DNA of 49,354 nucleotides from Thermoleophilia bacterium. GTDB taxonomy: Bacteria > Actinomycetota > Thermoleophilia > BMS3ABIN01. The stretch lies in assembly GCA_014859345.1 (NCBI GenBank), contig JACUUL010000009.1, positions 1 to 49,354 of the forward strand, given 5' to 3'. The position numbers were made by a program, and so were the translations under genes. The notes under the pieces were generated by a model, which ran no database searches, was not told the origin of the DNA, and saw nothing but the letters and a program-made list of their open reading frames with translations. Below are positions 1-36,266 of the stretch, in pieces. How positions within the stretch are numbered: position 1 is the first letter of the stretch; the number at the start of each line of letters is the position of its first letter.

Positions 1-534
1 CCGGCCACCATGAAGGTCGAGTACGGCACCGCCTCGGGCGTCTACACGGATGTCGCCAACGACACCGTGCTCAACGCCGACAAGACCGTGTCGCTCACCG
101 GCCTCACGCCGGGAACCACCTACTACGTCAAGGTGACCTCATACGACGGCTGGGCCAACGGCGCCGAGAGCGCCGAGTTCAGCTTCACCACCGACTCCAG
201 CTGTCCGCCTCCGGCCAAGCCTGACCTGAGCCTGAGCGTCGCGGACGTCTACTGGGCCAGCTACGCCGACTACACGGCGCGCGAGCTGTCGGTTGACCTC
301 AGCGTGGGCAACACCGGCGCTGACACGGCCTACAACGTGGCCATCACCGGCGCCACCGCCACCAACGGCGTATCGCTGATAAGCGCCACTCCGGTCAGCG
401 CGGGCGACATCGCCGGCGGCTCCAGCGCCACGGCCACGGTCAAGTATGACGTGCCGGCCGGCGTGGGCGGGTTCCAGACCAGCGTCAGCGGCTCCGCCGA
501 GGACTGCAGCGGAAACGGCTACACGTATCCCTAG
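1..534 (+). CDS. Secreted fibronectin-III-type protein, 3' end only
   Basis: The reading frame is open to the left edge, so this is the C-terminal ~177 residues of a longer protein; the ATG at 10 is probably internal. The first ~60 residues look like a fibronectin type III module (a VEYGT strand, then LTGLTPGTTYYVKVTS and a closing SFTT strand), usual in extracellular proteins. After a CPPP linker comes a ~105-residue C-terminal domain starting KPDLSLSV, with a YW..YADYTARELSV signature and ending SGNGYTYP. The same domain closes the LVIVD-repeat protein at 33057-34970 (YWPTYADYTDRNLSV ... FSYPGPYDG). Its function is unknown; inference is a surface or sorting domain of this organism. The next gene, a 43-codon peptide gene, follows after 53 bp on the same strand and may be cotranscribed. 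Partial at the 5' end. Confidence 0.8.
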   Translation, partial: PATMKVEYGTASGVYTDVANDTVLNADKTVSLTGLTPGTTYYVKVTSYDGWANGAESAEFSFTTDSSCPPPAKPDLSLSVADVYWASYADYTARELSVDLSVGNTGADTAYNVAITGATATNGVSLISATPVSAGDIAGGSSATATVKYDVPAGVGGFQTSVSGSAEDCSGNGYTYP

Positions 535-587: not shown

Positions 588-719
588 ATGAAGACCAAGA
601 AAACGCGGGAACCCTATGCCAAGCCGGTTCTCGTCAGGCATGAGAACCTGAGGGACGTCACGTTCGAGTGTCCCGACTGGCAGTGTAGCGTAGTGGTTCC
701 GGGCCCGCCTGAGGGATAA
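588..719 (+). CDS. 43-aa RiPP-precursor-like peptide with lasso-type leader motif
   Basis: A short gene of 43 codons with a good AGGAG site at 576-580, seven bases before the ATG, and a strong terminator 28 bp after its stop. The peptide begins MKTKKTREPYAKPVLVRHEN and continues to a Cys-Pro-Asp-Trp-Gln-Cys segment and a VVVPGPPEG tail. Residues Y10, P13, L15 and T25 fit the spacing YxxPxLxxx(G)xxxxxT known from lasso-peptide leaders, which is read by a PqqD-like recognition domain; the usual Gly is Glu19 here. If cleavage follows the residue after T25, as in lasso precursors, the core is Glu27-Gly43. That core lacks the N-terminal Gly and the Asp/Glu at core position 7-9 needed for a lasso ring, so another modification of C28 and C33 or the tail is as likely. 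An HprK-like kinase gene lies ~0.8 kb downstream. No cyclase, protease or radical SAM maturase is visible; they may lie left of the window. Confidence 0.65.
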   Translation: MKTKKTREPYAKPVLVRHENLRDVTFECPDWQCSVVVPGPPEG

Positions 720-747
720 GGCGCGGCCAGACATAAGCGAAGCACCG

Positions 748-778
748 GGAGGGAGGCCCCAGGGCCTCCCTCCTTTTT
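748..778 (+). terminator. Rho-independent terminator after the small peptide gene
   Basis: A perfect 12-bp GC-rich inverted repeat (GGAGGGAGGCCC / GGGCCTCCCTCC) is followed directly by five T. It closes the transcript carrying the small peptide gene and separates it from the lipoprotein and HprK-like genes downstream. Confidence 0.9.
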
Positions 779-870
779 AAGACATCTTAAGTTTTAGAGC
801 ATGATTGCCGGAAATGGAGTAAAATTAATTCACTCTGTTTTGCAAGCGACAGGCGAGGAGTGTACGGAAT

Positions 871-1443
871 ATGAAAGCTGTTGACCTCAGTGGCGGGCCG
901 TGGGGACGGCGGAAATGGCTGGTGGTCGCGACAGCGGCGGCGGCTGTGCTGGTTCTGGCAGGAATCATTTTGATAGGTGGGTGTGGCGGAAACGAAGAAC
1001 AGGGCACCGCCGGTTCCCAGCTGGACGATGAAGCTTCGGACAGCGTGACAGTTTCGACGGTCTCAGGTGCGGGAGATAACGTGCTTCCCGGCTACACCGA
1101 GGAACAATGCATTGACGAGATGACGGCCCGGTATGGCGACGAGGAGACGGCCAGGCAGGTCTGTGACGCCATCCGCTCCGATTATGGCGATTCTTCTTTG
1201 GACTTCGAGACGATTCTGCAGGATACGGAAGCAAGGCTGGGCGTAGCTCCTCTGCCGGGCGCTCCGGCTCCAGCAGGTCCGGCCGGCCAGCCGGGCGGCA
1301 ACCAGCCCGGAGGCAGCCAGCCGGACGGCAGCCGGCCGGGCGGCAGCCAGCTTCCAGGTCCACCGCCGCAGGACCCGCCCCCGGGTGATGGCGGCGGCTG
1401 GGATTCGGGAGGCATCGAGATCATCGTGCCGCCGGCGCCTTAA
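871..1443 (+). CDS. Pro/Gly-rich predicted lipoprotein, unknown function
   Basis: A 190-aa protein that I do not recognise. The start is supported by a GGCGAGGAG site at 852-860. A basic N-terminus (RRK at residues 13-15) precedes a hydrophobic stretch of about 20 residues ending in LIGGC, a plausible lipobox, so the mature protein would be lipid-anchored at Cys38. Residues ~65-125 form an acidic, probably folded region with two Cys (EEQC ... RQVC), which could form a disulfide. From ~128 to the end it is low complexity: PGGNQPGGSQPDGSRPGGSQ-type imperfect repeats, then PPPQDPPPGDGGG, resembling a wall-spanning or extended linker. It lies between the RiPP-like gene (across a terminator) and the HprK-like gene 90 bp downstream, with which it may form a transcript. 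Confidence 0.7.
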   Translation: MKAVDLSGGPWGRRKWLVVATAAAAVLVLAGIILIGGCGGNEEQGTAGSQLDDEASDSVTVSTVSGAGDNVLPGYTEEQCIDEMTARYGDEETARQVCDAIRSDYGDSSLDFETILQDTEARLGVAPLPGAPAPAGPAGQPGGNQPGGSQPDGSRPGGSQLPGPPPQDPPPGDGGGWDSGGIEIIVPPAP

Positions 1444-1533
1444 GCCGCGGACGGACGGTTCACTGTTAATAAAGAGCAAGACGAACGCAAGGCAAAGGGA
1501 CGGTCATTTTAAGGAGCGAAGGCAGGAGGGAAG

Positions 1534-2559
1534 GTGCCGGGCAGTCTCGGCGAAAGCATCGAAAAACGCATAAGAGGGGGCAGGCTGAACGCGGCCACAT
1601 ATTTCGTGCACGGGCTGGTTACCAGGGTCAACACGGATGATCATCTGCTGGCCCTGGCTGTCCAGGATTTCCTCAGGCCTTTTCGCGGCCAGCCGTATGC
1701 CGAACCGGATATAGAGTTCTACCTGCTCACCAGGGAACCCGGCTTCGAATACGAGCCGGGCGACAGGTCGGGAAACAGCGAGCTCCTTTACGACTGGCAT
1801 GTCCTTAAATATGTGAAGGAAGGCCGCCTGCGCTACCAGGAAGTACCCGGCGCCGGCTGGGTGGTGGCCGATCCTGACGAGGGGCTGGCAGTCGCTTTTG
1901 TCGAGCCTGATATTGCCGCGTGTGCCTGGTCAGTGGCGCATGTGATCTTCTTCCCGATGTGGGCGCAGTTGCTCAAAACGCGGGGAGTATTCCCGATTCA
2001 CGCGGCCGGCCTGGAGCGGCGCGGCAAGGGAGTCCTGTTTCCGGGGAAGAGCGGCTGCGGCAAGTCCACACTTTCTCTCCATCTGCTGCGTCAGGGCTTC
2101 AGGCTGCTGGGAGACGACACCGTCTTTGTCAGGCGCGCCCGCGGGGGAGCGGAGATGCTTTTCTTCCCCGAGGAAGTGGATGTATGCTCCGAAACGGTGG
2201 ACCTGTACCCGCAGCTGGCCCTGGCCCGGAACCTGACCGAGGACCGCTGGCAGCCCAGAGCCAGGGTCAACCTGAATGACGTCGGCTCAGATGCTGTTAT
2301 CGAATCGTGCCGGACAGATCTGCTTGTCTTCCCGGTCATTTCCGCCGACGGGCTGACCCGCTGGGAACGTGTCGGTCAGACCGAGGCGCTCGCGGAGCTG
2401 ATCCTGTACGCATTTCTTTTCATGGACCCCCAAACCAGCGAGGAGAATTTCGCGCTCCTGGCCTCTCTGGTGCAGACGGCCGGATGTTACCGCCTGCACA
2501 TGGGTCTGGACGGCGCCAAGCTCGCCGGCGCCGTCGATGAGATAATCGCCGCCGCGTAG
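1534..2559 (+). CDS. HPr kinase-like (HprK-type) P-loop protein
   Basis: A 341-aa protein starting at GTG with AGGAGG at 1524-1529. The C-terminal half has the HprK-type fold signature: IHAAGLE at 155-161, a P-loop GKSGCGKST at 171-179 and GDD at 193-195, which correspond to the conserved His, Walker A and paired Asp of the HPr kinase family. The N-terminal ~145 residues are not recognisable. True HprK acts on Ser46 of HPr, but no ptsH or PTS gene is nearby. HprK-like proteins are also common in RiPP clusters, and in some lasso systems a kinase of this fold phosphorylates the precursor. Proximity to the lasso-type-leader peptide gene at 588-719 suggests such a role, which is inference. A strong hairpin lies just after the stop. 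Confidence 0.75.
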   Translation: MPGSLGESIEKRIRGGRLNAATYFVHGLVTRVNTDDHLLALAVQDFLRPFRGQPYAEPDIEFYLLTREPGFEYEPGDRSGNSELLYDWHVLKYVKEGRLRYQEVPGAGWVVADPDEGLAVAFVEPDIAACAWSVAHVIFFPMWAQLLKTRGVFPIHAAGLERRGKGVLFPGKSGCGKSTLSLHLLRQGFRLLGDDTVFVRRARGGAEMLFFPEEVDVCSETVDLYPQLALARNLTEDRWQPRARVNLNDVGSDAVIESCRTDLLVFPVISADGLTRWERVGQTEALAELILYAFLFMDPQTSEENFALLASLVQTAGCYRLHMGLDGAKLAGAVDEIIAAA

Positions 2560-30298: not shown

Positions 30299-31498
30299 AT
30301 GATAGACATCACCCGACTCTACTGCGACCGGGACACTCCCGCCGACGCTCTCCGCTACGGCCACGGCCGAAAGGGGAAGCAGATGGCCGGGGCGCCCAAT
30401 ATTCCCAGGAGGCCCAGGTCGGCCTCGGAGCGCCGCCCCGTGGTAGTCTGGAATACCAGCCGCACCTGCAACCTGAAGTGCGTCCACTGCTACACCGACT
30501 CGGAAGCGAAAAAATACGAGGGGGAGCTCACTACCGAGGAAGGCAAGACCCTTATCGAGGACCTTGCGAGCTTCCAGATCCCGGCGCTGCTGTTCTCTGG
30601 GGGCGAGCCGCTGATGAGAAAGGATCTTTTTGAGCTGGCCGGCTACGCGGCCTCGCTGGGCATCCGTCCCACTCTCTCCACCAACGGCACCCTGATTACG
30701 CTGGAAACGGCCAGGAAGCTCAAGGATATCGGCTTTACCTACGTTGGCATCAGCCTGGATGGCATCGGCGAGGTCAACGACACCTTCCGGGGTCATGAAG
30801 GCGCTTTTAAGAAGACCATGCAGGGCTTTCGCAACTGCGTCGAGGTTGGGCAGCGGGTCGGCCTCAGGCTCACCCTCACCCGCCATAACTATCGCGATCT
30901 GCACAACATCTTTGATTTCATCGAGGCTGAAAACATCGACCGCGCCTGCTTCTATCATCTGGTATATTCCGGCCGCGGCAAGGACACCGATGACCTGACT
31001 CACGAAGAGAGTCGCGACGCCATGGACATCATTCTGGCTCGTACTAAGGATTTCCATGACCGCGGCCTGGAGAAGGACATCCTCACCGTTGACAACCACG
31101 TGGACGGCATTTACCTGTACATGAAGCTCCGCGAAGAAGCGCCGGAGCGGGCCGAGGCGGTCATGAAACTGCTCAGGTGGAACGGCGGCGGCATGTTCAG
31201 TTCAGGCGTGGGAATCGGAGACATCGACTTTCTGGGGAACGTGCACCCGGACCAGTTCTGGATGCACCATACCTTCGGCAACGTGCGGGAGAGGCCTTTC
31301 AGCGTGATCTGGATGGATACCTCTGACCCGGTCATGAAAGGGCTTAAGGACCGCCGCGGACATATCCACGGCCGCTGCCGGTCCTGCAAGTGGTTCGACG
31401 CCTGCGGCGGCGCCATGCGGGCGCGGGCCGATCTCTATTACGGTGATCCGTGGGGCCCGGACCCGGCCTGCTACCTGACCGACGAGGAGATAAGTTAA
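30299..31498 (+). CDS. ahbC: 12,18-didecarboxysiroheme deacetylase (radical SAM, AhbC)
   Basis: Radical SAM enzyme of the siroheme-dependent heme pathway; it removes the two acetate side chains of didecarboxysiroheme to give iron-coproporphyrin III. The 399-aa product has the AhbC-like opening MIDITRLYC ... ADALRYGHG, then the CxxxCxxC cluster at Cys57, 61 and 64 in CNLKCVHCY, FSGGEPLMR (SAM-binding GGE) and ISLDG. The C-terminus carries a SPASM-like Cys set (CRSCKWFDACGG ... DPACYL) for an auxiliary cluster. It is followed at once by ahbD, the next enzyme. Cytoplasmic. Confidence 0.92.
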   Translation: MIDITRLYCDRDTPADALRYGHGRKGKQMAGAPNIPRRPRSASERRPVVVWNTSRTCNLKCVHCYTDSEAKKYEGELTTEEGKTLIEDLASFQIPALLFSGGEPLMRKDLFELAGYAASLGIRPTLSTNGTLITLETARKLKDIGFTYVGISLDGIGEVNDTFRGHEGAFKKTMQGFRNCVEVGQRVGLRLTLTRHNYRDLHNIFDFIEAENIDRACFYHLVYSGRGKDTDDLTHEESRDAMDIILARTKDFHDRGLEKDILTVDNHVDGIYLYMKLREEAPERAEAVMKLLRWNGGGMFSSGVGIGDIDFLGNVHPDQFWMHHTFGNVRERPFSVIWMDTSDPVMKGLKDRRGHIHGRCRSCKWFDACGGAMRARADLYYGDPWGPDPACYLTDEEIS

Positions 31499-31506
31499 AA
31501 GTTTCA

Positions 31507-32616
31507 ATGAGCCATTCCCGCGCGCAGAATGCAAAGCATCCGGCGGGCTCTTCCGGGAAAGGGGCCGCGCCACCGCGCCTGGTGGCCTGGGAGGTCACGC
31601 GCAAGTGCGGCCTCTCCTGCCGTCACTGCCGCGCCGCCGCCAACAAGGGTCCCTATCCGGGTGAGCTTTCCACCGGGAAATGCTTCCAGGTGATCGACGA
31701 GATCGCCGGGGTGGGCCGGCCCATAGTCATCCTCACCGGCGGCGATCCCATGCTGCGCGAAAACATCTACGAGATTGCCAGGTATGGCACGGAAAAAGGC
31801 CTGAAGATGGTCATGTCTCCCTGCGGCACCCTGCTAAATGAGGAGAACGCCTCCCGCCTGAAAGAGGCTGGCATCGACCGCATCAGCATCAGCATCGACG
31901 GCGCGACCGCCCGGACTCACGACGATTTTCGCCGGGTCCCGGGGGCCTTTGCCGATGCCTTGAAAGGTATCACGGAGGCCGGGAAGGCCGGCATCGAGGT
32001 TCAGATTAACACAACCGTGACCAGGGTCAACCTTCCGGAGCTGAAAGACATCCTCCGGCTGGCCATCGATTTGGGGGCAGTTGCTTTCCATCCGTTCCTG
32101 CTGGTGCCCACCGGCCGGGGCAAGGAGCTGGCCGACCAGGAGCTCTCCCCCGAAGAGTACGAAGAGACCCTCAACTGGGTCTACGATCAGCGTGACACGG
32201 TGCCTCTGCATTTCAAGCCCACCTGCGCGCCCCATTACTATCGCATCCTCAGGCAGCGAGCCCATGAAGAAGGGCTGAAGGTAAACCCCCAGACTTTCGG
32301 GATGGATGCCCGCGCCAAGGGATGCCTGGGCGGACAGGGGTTCTGCTTCATATCATACCGGGGAGAAGTGCAGATCTGTGGCTTTCTGGACGTGAAATGC
32401 GGAGACCTGAAGGAGCAAAGCTTCAGTGAGGTTTGGCGCGACTCGCCTGTATTTAAGCAGATGCGCGACCTGGATAGCTACCACGGCCGCTGTGGTTGCT
32501 GCGAGTACCGCCGTTTCTGCGGCGGTTGCCGCGCCCGCGCCTTCGAAGTCACGGGAGATTACCTCGGCGAGGAACCTTTCTGCGTGTACGAGCCGAAGGC
32601 GAGAAAGAAGTCCTGA
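31507..32616 (+). CDS. ahbD: Heme synthase / iron-coproporphyrin III decarboxylase (radical SAM, AhbD)
   Basis: Radical SAM enzyme that oxidatively decarboxylates two propionates of iron-coproporphyrin III to make heme b, the last step of the Ahb route. With ATG 31507 it has 369 aa. The radical SAM cluster is Cys34, 38 and 41 (CGLSCRHC), followed by LTGGDPMLR and SISIDGA. The C-terminal region has two Cys groups, CLGGQGFCFIS ... ICGFLDVKCG and CGCCEYRRFCGGC, consistent with a SPASM auxiliary cluster. A longer frame would overlap ahbC by ~49 bp and has no better ribosome site. The following 440 bp are non-coding with a terminator-like hairpin. Confidence 0.92.
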   Translation: MSHSRAQNAKHPAGSSGKGAAPPRLVAWEVTRKCGLSCRHCRAAANKGPYPGELSTGKCFQVIDEIAGVGRPIVILTGGDPMLRENIYEIARYGTEKGLKMVMSPCGTLLNEENASRLKEAGIDRISISIDGATARTHDDFRRVPGAFADALKGITEAGKAGIEVQINTTVTRVNLPELKDILRLAIDLGAVAFHPFLLVPTGRGKELADQELSPEEYEETLNWVYDQRDTVPLHFKPTCAPHYYRILRQRAHEEGLKVNPQTFGMDARAKGCLGGQGFCFISYRGEVQICGFLDVKCGDLKEQSFSEVWRDSPVFKQMRDLDSYHGRCGCCEYRRFCGGCRARAFEVTGDYLGEEPFCVYEPKARKKS

Positions 32617-33056: not shown

Positions 33057-34970
33057 TTGAGGCGGAGGAGCAGGGGAAGCATCGCAGCGGGCCATAAAGC
33101 CGGCGCTGCCTTGTTTTTTGCGGTTCTGGTCACGGGCCTGCTGATTGCCGGCGCTGCCGGCGCCGCTGATACGCCTGCAATCGTCGGGCTGACATCTCCA
33201 ACACATCCCGACCCGGACGTATGGTACGCCAATAGCTCTCCCGAATTCAGCTGGTCGTCGTCGGGAGATTCGGCTGTGGTCGGCGCCTACAGCACCCAGG
33301 GGGACGCCCGCGGTGTGACCGTGGCCGGAAACCACGCCATCGTGGCTGCCGGCAATGGAGGCCTCCAGATCATAGATATCTCGAATCCGGCGAATCCTTC
33401 CAAGGTGGGCTCCTATAAAACTCCTTCCTATGCCTACGATGTAGCCGTCTCCGCGCAGTATGCTTATGTTGTTTATGGCGTGGGCATGCAGATCTTCGAT
33501 ATCTCCGAGCCCGCGAGTCCAAGGCTCACCAGTACCTATAACACTCCCGGGACAGCCTACGGCGTCCATGTTTCCGGGTCATACGCGCTGGTGGCGGACC
33601 GGTCAGCCGGTCTGCAGATAGTCGATGTGTCGAATCCCCAAAGTCCGGTCCCCGCCGGGACCTTCGATACTCCCGGTTCGGCGATGGACGTGGCGGTCGC
33701 CGGTCAGTACGCGTTCGTCGCTGACGGGGCCGGCGGCCTTCGGATTCTGGACATCTCCGATCCGGCAGGCCCAGAGGCCTGCGGCCTCTACAGGGTCTCC
33801 GGAAACGCGAATGGAGTTGCCGTCTCCGGAAGCCATGCTTTCGTGGCTTATGGCGCCCTCGGTATGCGAATCCTGGACATTTCCAACCCGGCTGCTCCGT
33901 CGCTCACCGGCGCATATAACACTCCCGGAGACGCGCAGTCGGTGACCGTCTCCGGAATGTTCGCCTATGTCGCCGACGGTTCCGCCGGATTACAGATCAT
34001 CGACATCTCGACTCCGGCCAGCCCGGCTCTGGAAAAGGCGCACGACACTCCGGGCATATCTTATGATGTGGACGTATCGGATGGCCGTGCTTATGTGGCT
34101 GACGGTTCATCCGGTCTGCAGATAATAAGTCCGGGCGGTCAGGCATCTGCCTATTCCTATATCCTTGACCAGCAACCGGAAACCGTGCCCGACGAGGTCG
34201 CGGAAGGATCGGCATCGCACGCCGCCTACGCGGATATCCCGGATGGCGAGTGGTATTTCCATGTGAGAGCGGGTGATGAAAGCGGCGACTGGGGACCGGC
34301 CTCGCACCTCAGATTCAGAATCGACACGACTGCTCCCCAGATAACGGATGTCAAACCGTCCGGAACCATCGGGACGGATTCGGCCGTGGTGAGTGCGTAC
34401 TACGCGGATGCCCTCTCCGGAATCGATACCGGCTCGGTGACTGTCAGCCTTGACGGGACGGAACTGAACGGCTGCGACGTGACCGGAAGCGGTGTCAGCT
34501 GCCCGGTTTCCGGCCTGGGGGCAGGTCAGCATGATATTGAAGTAAACGTGGCGGACAATGCCGGAAATGCCGGCGCCGCCCACGGATCATTCGAGGCAGC
34601 AACCGGGGGAAGCATCTGTGGCGAGGTCGATTCTCCCAGGCCCTCATTGACCCTGTCTTTGGCCAGGGCGTACTGGCCAACCTATGCGGATTACACGGAC
34701 AGAAACCTGTCGGTTGAATTCACTTTAAGGAATAATCTCGGTCCTGACGCCCTGGATGTGAATGTAGTCGGCACATATAACACCAGTAGCGTTTCCCTGG
34801 TCACGGAAATGCCTCGTGGCGTGGGCGAGATCTCCCGGAATTCGGAGTCAGCCATGACCCTTGTCTATAACTTGCCGCCTGCAGCGATGTCATTCAAAAC
34901 CACCGTTTACGCGACGGCAAGCAACGAATGCGGCGACATGTTCAGCTATCCCGGGCCCTATGACGGCTAG
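33057..34970 (+). CDS. Secreted seven-repeat LVIVD beta-propeller protein
   Basis: A 637-aa exported protein. The TTG start is set by AGGAGG at 33045-33050. The signal peptide has RRRSR then a hydrophobic core ending AAGAAGAAD. Residues ~80-360 hold seven ~42-residue LVIVD repeats, each ending like GLQIIDISNPANP with a YNTPG turn; seven repeats fit one closed seven-bladed propeller. Then come a short Ig-like segment (WYFHVRAGDESGDWGPASHLRF), another Ig-like stretch (~415-500) and the C-terminal YWPTYADYTDRNLSV domain shared with the gene at 1-534. The single Cys pairs late in the protein may form disulfides. Set between ahbD and multiheme cytochromes, it may scaffold or dock extracellular redox proteins; that is inference. 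Confidence 0.85.
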   Translation: MRRRSRGSIAAGHKAGAALFFAVLVTGLLIAGAAGAADTPAIVGLTSPTHPDPDVWYANSSPEFSWSSSGDSAVVGAYSTQGDARGVTVAGNHAIVAAGNGGLQIIDISNPANPSKVGSYKTPSYAYDVAVSAQYAYVVYGVGMQIFDISEPASPRLTSTYNTPGTAYGVHVSGSYALVADRSAGLQIVDVSNPQSPVPAGTFDTPGSAMDVAVAGQYAFVADGAGGLRILDISDPAGPEACGLYRVSGNANGVAVSGSHAFVAYGALGMRILDISNPAAPSLTGAYNTPGDAQSVTVSGMFAYVADGSAGLQIIDISTPASPALEKAHDTPGISYDVDVSDGRAYVADGSSGLQIISPGGQASAYSYILDQQPETVPDEVAEGSASHAAYADIPDGEWYFHVRAGDESGDWGPASHLRFRIDTTAPQITDVKPSGTIGTDSAVVSAYYADALSGIDTGSVTVSLDGTELNGCDVTGSGVSCPVSGLGAGQHDIEVNVADNAGNAGAAHGSFEAATGGSICGEVDSPRPSLTLSLARAYWPTYADYTDRNLSVEFTLRNNLGPDALDVNVVGTYNTSSVSLVTEMPRGVGEISRNSESAMTLVYNLPPAAMSFKTTVYATASNECGDMFSYPGPYDG

Positions 34971-35303: not shown

Positions 35304-36266
35304 ATGAAAAAGACAGTAATAGTGGCTCTGATAGCTGTATCCATCGCGCTGCTGGCCTTCACCGGCGCAGCAATGGCGGGCACCAGCCCTCACGGTGGCT
35401 ACAGCGCCACCACCAACTTCTGTAACGGTTGCCACGACGTCCACGACTCCGCCGGAGACTACGTGCTGACGCGCGAGCCCACCGTCACAGAGGTGTGTTC
35501 CACCTGTCACGGCGTCTTCGGTGTAAGCATGCCTGACGGCGGTGAGCCAGGGTGGACCTCGATACCGCCGGCCCTGGCCGGCACAGCCGCCACCGCCACC
35601 ACTTCGCAGTACGGCGCCTACACGCTCACGGGTGGAAACAGGGTGAGCGGCCACCGCCTGGGCATACAGCCGGGCGACGCGGCCAATGCCAATCCCGGAG
35701 ATGGCATCCCGGGAGGCTCCGACATCCTCAGGGTCGTGGGAGCCGGCAGCGCCCTCTATAATAACGAGTCGGTGATGGCATACCAGGGCACTCTGGGCCT
35801 GAACTGTGCCTCCTGCCACACGCCGCACTCGCTCATCACGGGCCAGGACAATCTGGCGTGTGAAAACGGGGTGCTGGTTCCCGGCCAGGACGGCGTCGAC
35901 GACGCGCCTTCGTCGACATACGGCAACCCGCCGCAGCTCGTGCATCAGGATGGATGCTCAAGTCACGCCAAGCACGTGGCTGCCGACCGGCTGCTCTCCA
36001 GCAAGCCGAACCACGTCGCGCAGGCAGCGACCACCTATAACGAGTACTGCGCCGCCTGTCACGATCTGCGTAACGGCGACATCGTTGACCACACGGGTAA
36101 CGTCGTGATAGAGAACCACCCGCCGGTGTGCGTGTCCTGCCACGAAGCCAAGGGCGCGGGGGGAGTGAAGATCGACTTCCCGCATACCAGCCCGAATTCG
36201 TCCCTGATCATCAAGACAGGCGACAATCTGTGCACCAGGTGTCACGCCGCCGGTACGATCGTGTAA
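35304..36266 (+). CDS. Exported hexaheme c-type cytochrome
   Basis: A 320-aa Sec-exported multiheme cytochrome. The start has AAGGAGGTG at 35289-35297, the best ribosome site in the window, suggesting high expression. Residues 1-25 form a signal peptide ending AMA. Six CxxCH heme-binding motifs follow: CNGCH, CSTCH, CASCH, CAACH, CVSCH and CTRCH. A CSSHAKH segment may be a decayed seventh site. Extra His residues (HDVHD, HTPHS, HTSPN) could be distal ligands. A long Gly/Asn/Asp-rich loop separates the second and third hemes. Likely role: extracytoplasmic electron transfer, matured by ResB/CcsA encoded downstream and using heme from the Ahb enzymes. Partner and donor are unknown. Confidence 0.9.
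   Translation: MKKTVIVALIAVSIALLAFTGAAMAGTSPHGGYSATTNFCNGCHDVHDSAGDYVLTREPTVTEVCSTCHGVFGVSMPDGGEPGWTSIPPALAGTAATATTSQYGAYTLTGGNRVSGHRLGIQPGDAANANPGDGIPGGSDILRVVGAGSALYNNESVMAYQGTLGLNCASCHTPHSLITGQDNLACENGVLVPGQDGVDDAPSSTYGNPPQLVHQDGCSSHAKHVAADRLLSSKPNHVAQAATTYNEYCAACHDLRNGDIVDHTGNVVIENHPPVCVSCHEAKGAGGVKIDFPHTSPNSSLIIKTGDNLCTRCHAAGTIV

Follow-up and report, generated by a model that had tools for sequence, protein, structure and literature searches.

A gene of 43 codons near one end of a contig from a Thermoleophilia bacterium (GenBank assembly GCA_014859345.1, contig JACUUL010000009.1) raises the question of what kind of peptide it encodes and which enzymes would process it. The window analyzed here is the entire contig, 49,354 nucleotides starting at contig base 1 (C56 of a 2.08 Mb genome in 122 contigs). 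The gene (588-719, forward strand, with the ATG at 588 and the stop codon included) had been predicted from this DNA to encode a precursor resembling those of ribosomally synthesized and post-translationally modified peptides (RiPPs), with a lasso-type leader and a tie to HprK-fold kinases. We found that it belongs to a family of genes scattered through the genome. We read it, with a probability of about 0.7, as encoding a RiPP precursor from a relative of the phosphorylated lasso peptides whose genes are dispersed, whose processing occurs in trans and which lacks a cyclase.

The precursor gene and its family

The elements named in the original prediction could all be located: an AGGAG ribosome-binding site at 576-580, the residues Y10, P13, L15, E19 and T25, and the segment C28-x4-C33. 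An alternative in-frame start lies upstream of the ATG at 561. The published lasso frame places YxxPxL at -17 to -12 and Thr at -2 of the leader (PMC10368454), and Y10, P13, L15 and T25 correspond to Y(-17), P(-14), L(-12) and T(-2) of that frame, as had been claimed. Based on T(-2), cleavage is predicted to separate leader residues 1-26 from a 17-aa core, ECPDWQCSVVVPGPPEG, which starts at residue 27 (666-716) and carries the Cys33-Ser34 pair at 684-689. The gene was also said to have a terminator of its own, and a hairpin followed by a T run (747-774, forward strand) has a computed folding energy of -27.7 kcal/mol (z -4.45), and none of 200 shuffles folded as well. This hairpin was not among the sites listed by a simple terminator scan.

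We searched for further copies with a profile built from seven paralogues. The comparison set comprised 19 genomes of the organism's own bacterial family (this genome and 18 relatives) and 41 from other (sister) families of the class. This genome yielded eight copies and the 18 relatives 4 to 12 each; the profile matched 0 of the 41 genomes from other families. A phylum-wide search of 397 genomes returned, outside the family, only matches confined to the leader, in one other family and with different cores. These include tandem small genes in three genomes (L173, and also L172 and L174; genomes G166, G381 and G104), in which a YxKPE...EIT leader precedes unrelated short cores and which may possibly represent another multi-copy family of lasso-leader peptides. 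Five extra loci came from an additional contig scan, and a genome that was already represented accounts for at least four of these.

In total, 104 precursor matches were gathered from the fetched loci, and conservation was scored on 43 diverse members. P13, T25, C33 and S34 are invariant in these, Y10, N20 and W31 are nearly so, and P13 and T25 stand at a constant distance across the family. The main type of core, represented by 82 distinct sequences, has the pattern E-C-[PSA]-x-W-Q-C-S-V-x-V, in most cases followed by a Pro-rich tail. In a second type W-x-C-S is kept and the tail is rich in His, Asp, Gly or Ser. We considered a quinone-type cofactor formed from Trp and Cys of the conserved W-x-C and rejected it, having found no supporting enzyme. 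The curated NCBIfam model lasso_leader_L3 matched 12 of the 43 members (best E 4.8e-5), the window's own copy not being among them. Changes per codon were more frequent at third positions (0.475) than at first (0.218) or second positions (0.196), and this excess, together with a median ratio of nonsynonymous to synonymous changes (pN/pS) of 0.35, fits purifying selection. Judged by its multiple copies per genome and its codon-position bias, the family is far from a chance pattern.

A kinase gene nearby and a cassette on another contig

The downstream HprK-type P-loop protein of the original prediction (HprK1, 341 aa, 1534-2559, forward strand) exceeds the cut-off of an HPr kinase model (PF07475, 35.3 bits against 33.3) and also matches TIGR04352 (E 1.3e-17), under the curated cut-off. 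Its tie to the precursor holds beyond this window: by coordinates, 15 of the 16 genomes that have an HprK1-type kinase gene carry a same-strand precursor upstream of it, mostly within ~1.3 kb, and within 2.4 kb in three genomes. HprK1 forms a separate orthologous group, with 67-79% identity in 14 relatives and a fragment in one more, compared with 36-41% to a second kinase of the genome, HprK2. Both proteins retain the His, the P-loop Lys and the Asp-Asp of HPr-type kinases.

HprK2 is encoded on another contig, C81, in a cassette with a PqqD-type domain (B1), a lasso B2-type leader protease, a DUF2079 membrane protein and a methyltransferase. B1 (PF05402, E 3e-18) is the genome's only PqqD match, and B2 (NF033537, 50.4 bits against a cut-off of 33; PF13471, E 5e-18) its only Transglut_core3 match. 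The original prediction had suggested that the maturation enzymes could be located to the left of the window. No such location is required, as the sole PqqD and B2 genes of the genome lie on C81.

The cassette recurs in 11 loci, in which we counted HprK2 in 11, B1 in 10, B2 in 9, DUF2079 in 9, a nucleotidyltransferase in 3 and the methyltransferase in 3. The Cys and the GHSW motif of B2 are kept across relatives. PF13471 scored above its cut-off in 16 of the 19 family genomes compared with 3 of the 41 others; the family retains B1, B2 and HprK, and most sister genomes are without them. The DUF2079 protein of the cassette is not specific to the family. A nucleotidyltransferase gene (NTP_transf_5, PF14907) is located on the cassette contig ~28 kb from the cassette. 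It occurs in 10 of the 18 relatives and lies near the cassette in genomes G001, G003, G012 and G016.

A leader of the lasso type together with B1 and B2 could also mean a true lasso precursor with an unusual ring, closed by a cyclase acting in trans. No asparagine-synthetase-like cyclase (PF00733) was found in the cassette, and generic AsnB-type genes occur elsewhere in the genome. Two such proteins are encoded on contig C92, and in one of them the glutaminase domain carries Ser where the catalytic Cys2 would be. We rejected this pair as the lasso cyclase: despite its lost Cys2, the protein tested scores as an asparagine synthase or exopolysaccharide amidotransferase and reaches 253 bits with the lasso cyclase model, whose cut-off is 525. 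Proteins similar to it occur class-wide, and the PF00733 gene beside B1 in the lasso-like clusters of two other genomes of the class (G053 and G033) is much more divergent. The gene itself (L088:5571-7451, contig C92 of this genome) encodes a protein that starts MSGIAG and lies a few kb downstream of the paralogue that keeps Cys2.

The cores argue against a ring as well. In the window, core positions 7-9 are C, S and V, in agreement with the earlier claim that this core could not form a lasso ring. Among 100 precursors with T at -2, just three have Asp or Glu at these positions, and Glu is the first core residue in 82. The three (L115, L124 and L137) are variants in which the core begins at [DE]WQCS and continues into a long His/Gly-rich tail. 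As the cassette encodes no cyclase and the ring acid is missing from 97 of 100 cores, the sequences indicate that the peptide is not an ordinary lasso peptide, and a lasso with an unusual ring is the most improbable of the alternatives considered.

Between the precursor and HprK1 lies a gene for a predicted lipoprotein (190 aa, Pro/Gly-rich, 871-1443, forward strand) that ends in WDSGGIEIIVPPAP and is kept at this place in relatives. In the relatives it ends W-x-x-G-G-I-x-I-x-V-P-x-x-P, which resembles the C-terminal half of the precursor core (W-Q-C-S-V-x-V-P-P-x-P). As possible maturases we also looked at the two radical SAM/SPASM genes of the window (30299-32616) and set them aside. They are of heme-biosynthesis types (heme b synthase, above its cut-off, and NirJ1/AhbC-like) and unlinked to the precursors.

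Pairing with exported proteins

Upstream of the precursor, the contig begins with the C-terminal fragment of an exported protein (1-534, forward strand), the 5' end of which is cut off by the contig start. An FN3-like region is followed by a C-terminal domain (220-531) of a kind that we refer to as YWA, after the motif YWASYADY, and that measures ~104 aa. A near-identical paralogue of the fragment is located on contig C93. The domain was found in 19 of 19 family genomes, with 11 to 39 copies each, and in 0 of the 41 sister genomes.

Most precursors are located beside a gene for such a protein. Across genomes, 69 of the 104 directly adjoin one, the YWA open reading frame (ORF) being immediately upstream in 61 cases and downstream in 8; many of these loci are orthologous, so that the counts are not independent. 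The gap from an upstream YWA ORF to the precursor is mostly 24-113 bp. Within this genome, seven of the eight precursors lie beside a YWA gene, for which the chance expectation is ~1e-19. The scattered multi-copy pattern and this pairing were beyond the reach of the original prediction because one window could not show them. A YWA protein is also encoded near the B1/B2 cassette in 6 of the 11 loci.

In 74 of 80 ORFs, no more than 25 aa separate the domain from the C terminus. By a simple rule, a Sec-like hydrophobic stretch opens 67 of the 69 long YWA ORFs. The remaining parts of the proteins vary and include beta-propellers, FN3, rhodanese and an ethylbenzene-dehydrogenase-type domain. The fold of the YWA domain is predicted to be an Ig-like sandwich (AlphaFold pLDDT 94). 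A search of solved structures with this model gave no match at E <= 0.001; the gamma-adaptin ear matched weakly (TM 0.69), and we build nothing on it. The window contains a second YWA protein with an LVIVD beta-propeller (33057-34970), between the heme-biosynthesis radical SAM genes and a multiheme cytochrome (35304-36266), and no precursor was found beside its gene.

Such tight pairing, with a peptide that has no signal peptide of its own, would also fit a small subunit or chaperone of the adjoining exported protein that is never processed and resembles a lasso leader by coincidence. We regard this as very unlikely. The P13-T25 spacing is fixed, T25 is invariant and curated lasso-leader models match, and the family keeps the B1, B2 and HprK genes that most sister genomes are without.

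A proposed route and its closest published relatives

We propose that the eight paralogues are served by one set of enzymes. B1 would bind the YxxPxL leader of every paralogue and present each to the kinases HprK1 and HprK2 and to B2. Both kinases would phosphorylate the core, most likely at Ser34. This residue is the likeliest site because it is the only invariant hydroxyl in the core and because HprK-type kinases target a core Ser in paeninodin, Bsf and the linear polyphosphorylated peptides (LPPs) of Bacillota. B2 would then cut after T-x and release a linear peptide of the type ECPxWQCSVxVPPPP. A nucleotidyltransferase has been reported to decorate the phosphate in pseudomycoidin, and the same may happen here in some species. 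The product is envisaged as acting outside the cell with the adjoining exported protein, serving its C-terminal domain as, for instance, a ligand, cap or anchor, a partnership suggested by gene pairing alone.

Lasso peptides share with this system YxxPxL at -17 to -12, Thr at -2, a B1 of the PqqD type acting as RiPP recognition element (RRE) and a B2 leader protease. The phosphorylated ones (paeninodin, pseudomycoidin and Bsf) share in addition the kinase with its His, Lys and Asp-Asp and, in some, the nucleotidyltransferase. In contrast to them, the system described here has no cassette cyclase, no ring acid and no compact cluster, and many substrates for each enzyme set. HPr-rel-A systems (kinase TIGR04352, PqqD TIGR04353) likewise combine an HprK-related kinase with a PqqD-type domain, but the scores here are far under the curated cut-offs (64 of 200 bits and 17 of 35 bits, respectively).

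The closest published class is that of the LPPs, described by Popov et al. 2026 (PMC13381572). The original prediction had inferred a RiPP of an unassigned class; a RiPP-like precursor is upheld, and the class is close to that of the LPPs. LPP systems also have a discrete RRE, an HprK-type kinase, a YxxP leader, a conserved Thr at the cleavage site and no cyclase, and an NTP transferase occurs in part of their genomes, as here. They differ in using a signal-peptidase-type leader protease, in being phosphorylated at Ser3 of a variable core and in having their precursors within the cluster (PMC13381572). Here, the protease is of the B2 cysteine type, about eight precursor copies are scattered and paired with exported proteins, and the hosts lie outside Bacillota. 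The core is short and conserved, and its only invariant Ser, at position 8, stands nine residues after the Thr and not three as in LPP.

The system could still be the LPP class proper, with the same chemistry and an exchanged leader peptidase. The genome does hold B1, two kinases and the NTP_transf_5 gene on the cassette contig. A signal-peptidase-type protease, however, was represented in this genome by two weak matches under the cut-off, on contigs C93 and C118, with none on C81 and both away from the RRE. As the position of the Ser, the core and the placement of the precursors differ too, we consider membership of that class unlikely. A second system, which we did not find in this genome, occurs in relatives, where a signal-peptidase-I-like gene is located near a second PqqD and/or a third HprK-type kinase (L106:1-2985, on contig C19 of G002; G001:C50, G004:C18, G006:C3, G009:C6, G010:C13 and G011:C122). 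It resembles the Bacillota LPP system and in G002 adjoins a YWA-domain gene.

Several observations weigh against a cyclase-free relative of phosphorylated lasso peptides that is processed in trans. The precursors are unlinked to the B1/B2 cassette and are connected to it by motif, uniqueness and shared distribution, not by one operon. B1 scores 62.9 bits with the lasso-specific model, where the curated cut-off is 80. For B2, G016 and G018 gave no match and the incomplete genome G008 gave only a weak one. No export transporter was identified; none was noticed in the cassette loci, and no dedicated search for an MsbA-like protein was made. About one third of the precursors have no YWA neighbour (several of these adjoin a hemC-like gene, as judged by reading), and the 11 to 39 YWA domains per genome outnumber the precursors.

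The product is probably linear and phosphorylated, a type of peptide that has not been described in this group before. In the open-access literature, beyond which other reports may exist, scattered precursors mostly paired with Sec-exported YWA proteins appear to be new. More tentatively, and at less than even odds, the lineage-specific C-terminal domain that many exported proteins carry may have these short phosphorylated RiPPs as its dedicated partners, in the role of anchor, cap or cofactor, with one cassette serving protein-peptide pairs genome-wide. If this is true, RiPP machinery would serve the biogenesis of the cell surface, not a secreted natural product.

The arrangement indicates that lasso-type processing enzymes can operate without a cyclase and without clustering, a layout that cluster-based genome mining could easily miss. 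For the role of phosphorylated lasso peptides and LPPs, the finding of the same enzyme types with conserved, multi-copy, genome-wide precursors beside identifiable exported proteins offers a concrete hypothesis, namely that peptide and surface protein act together, for which dozens of natural pairs are available.
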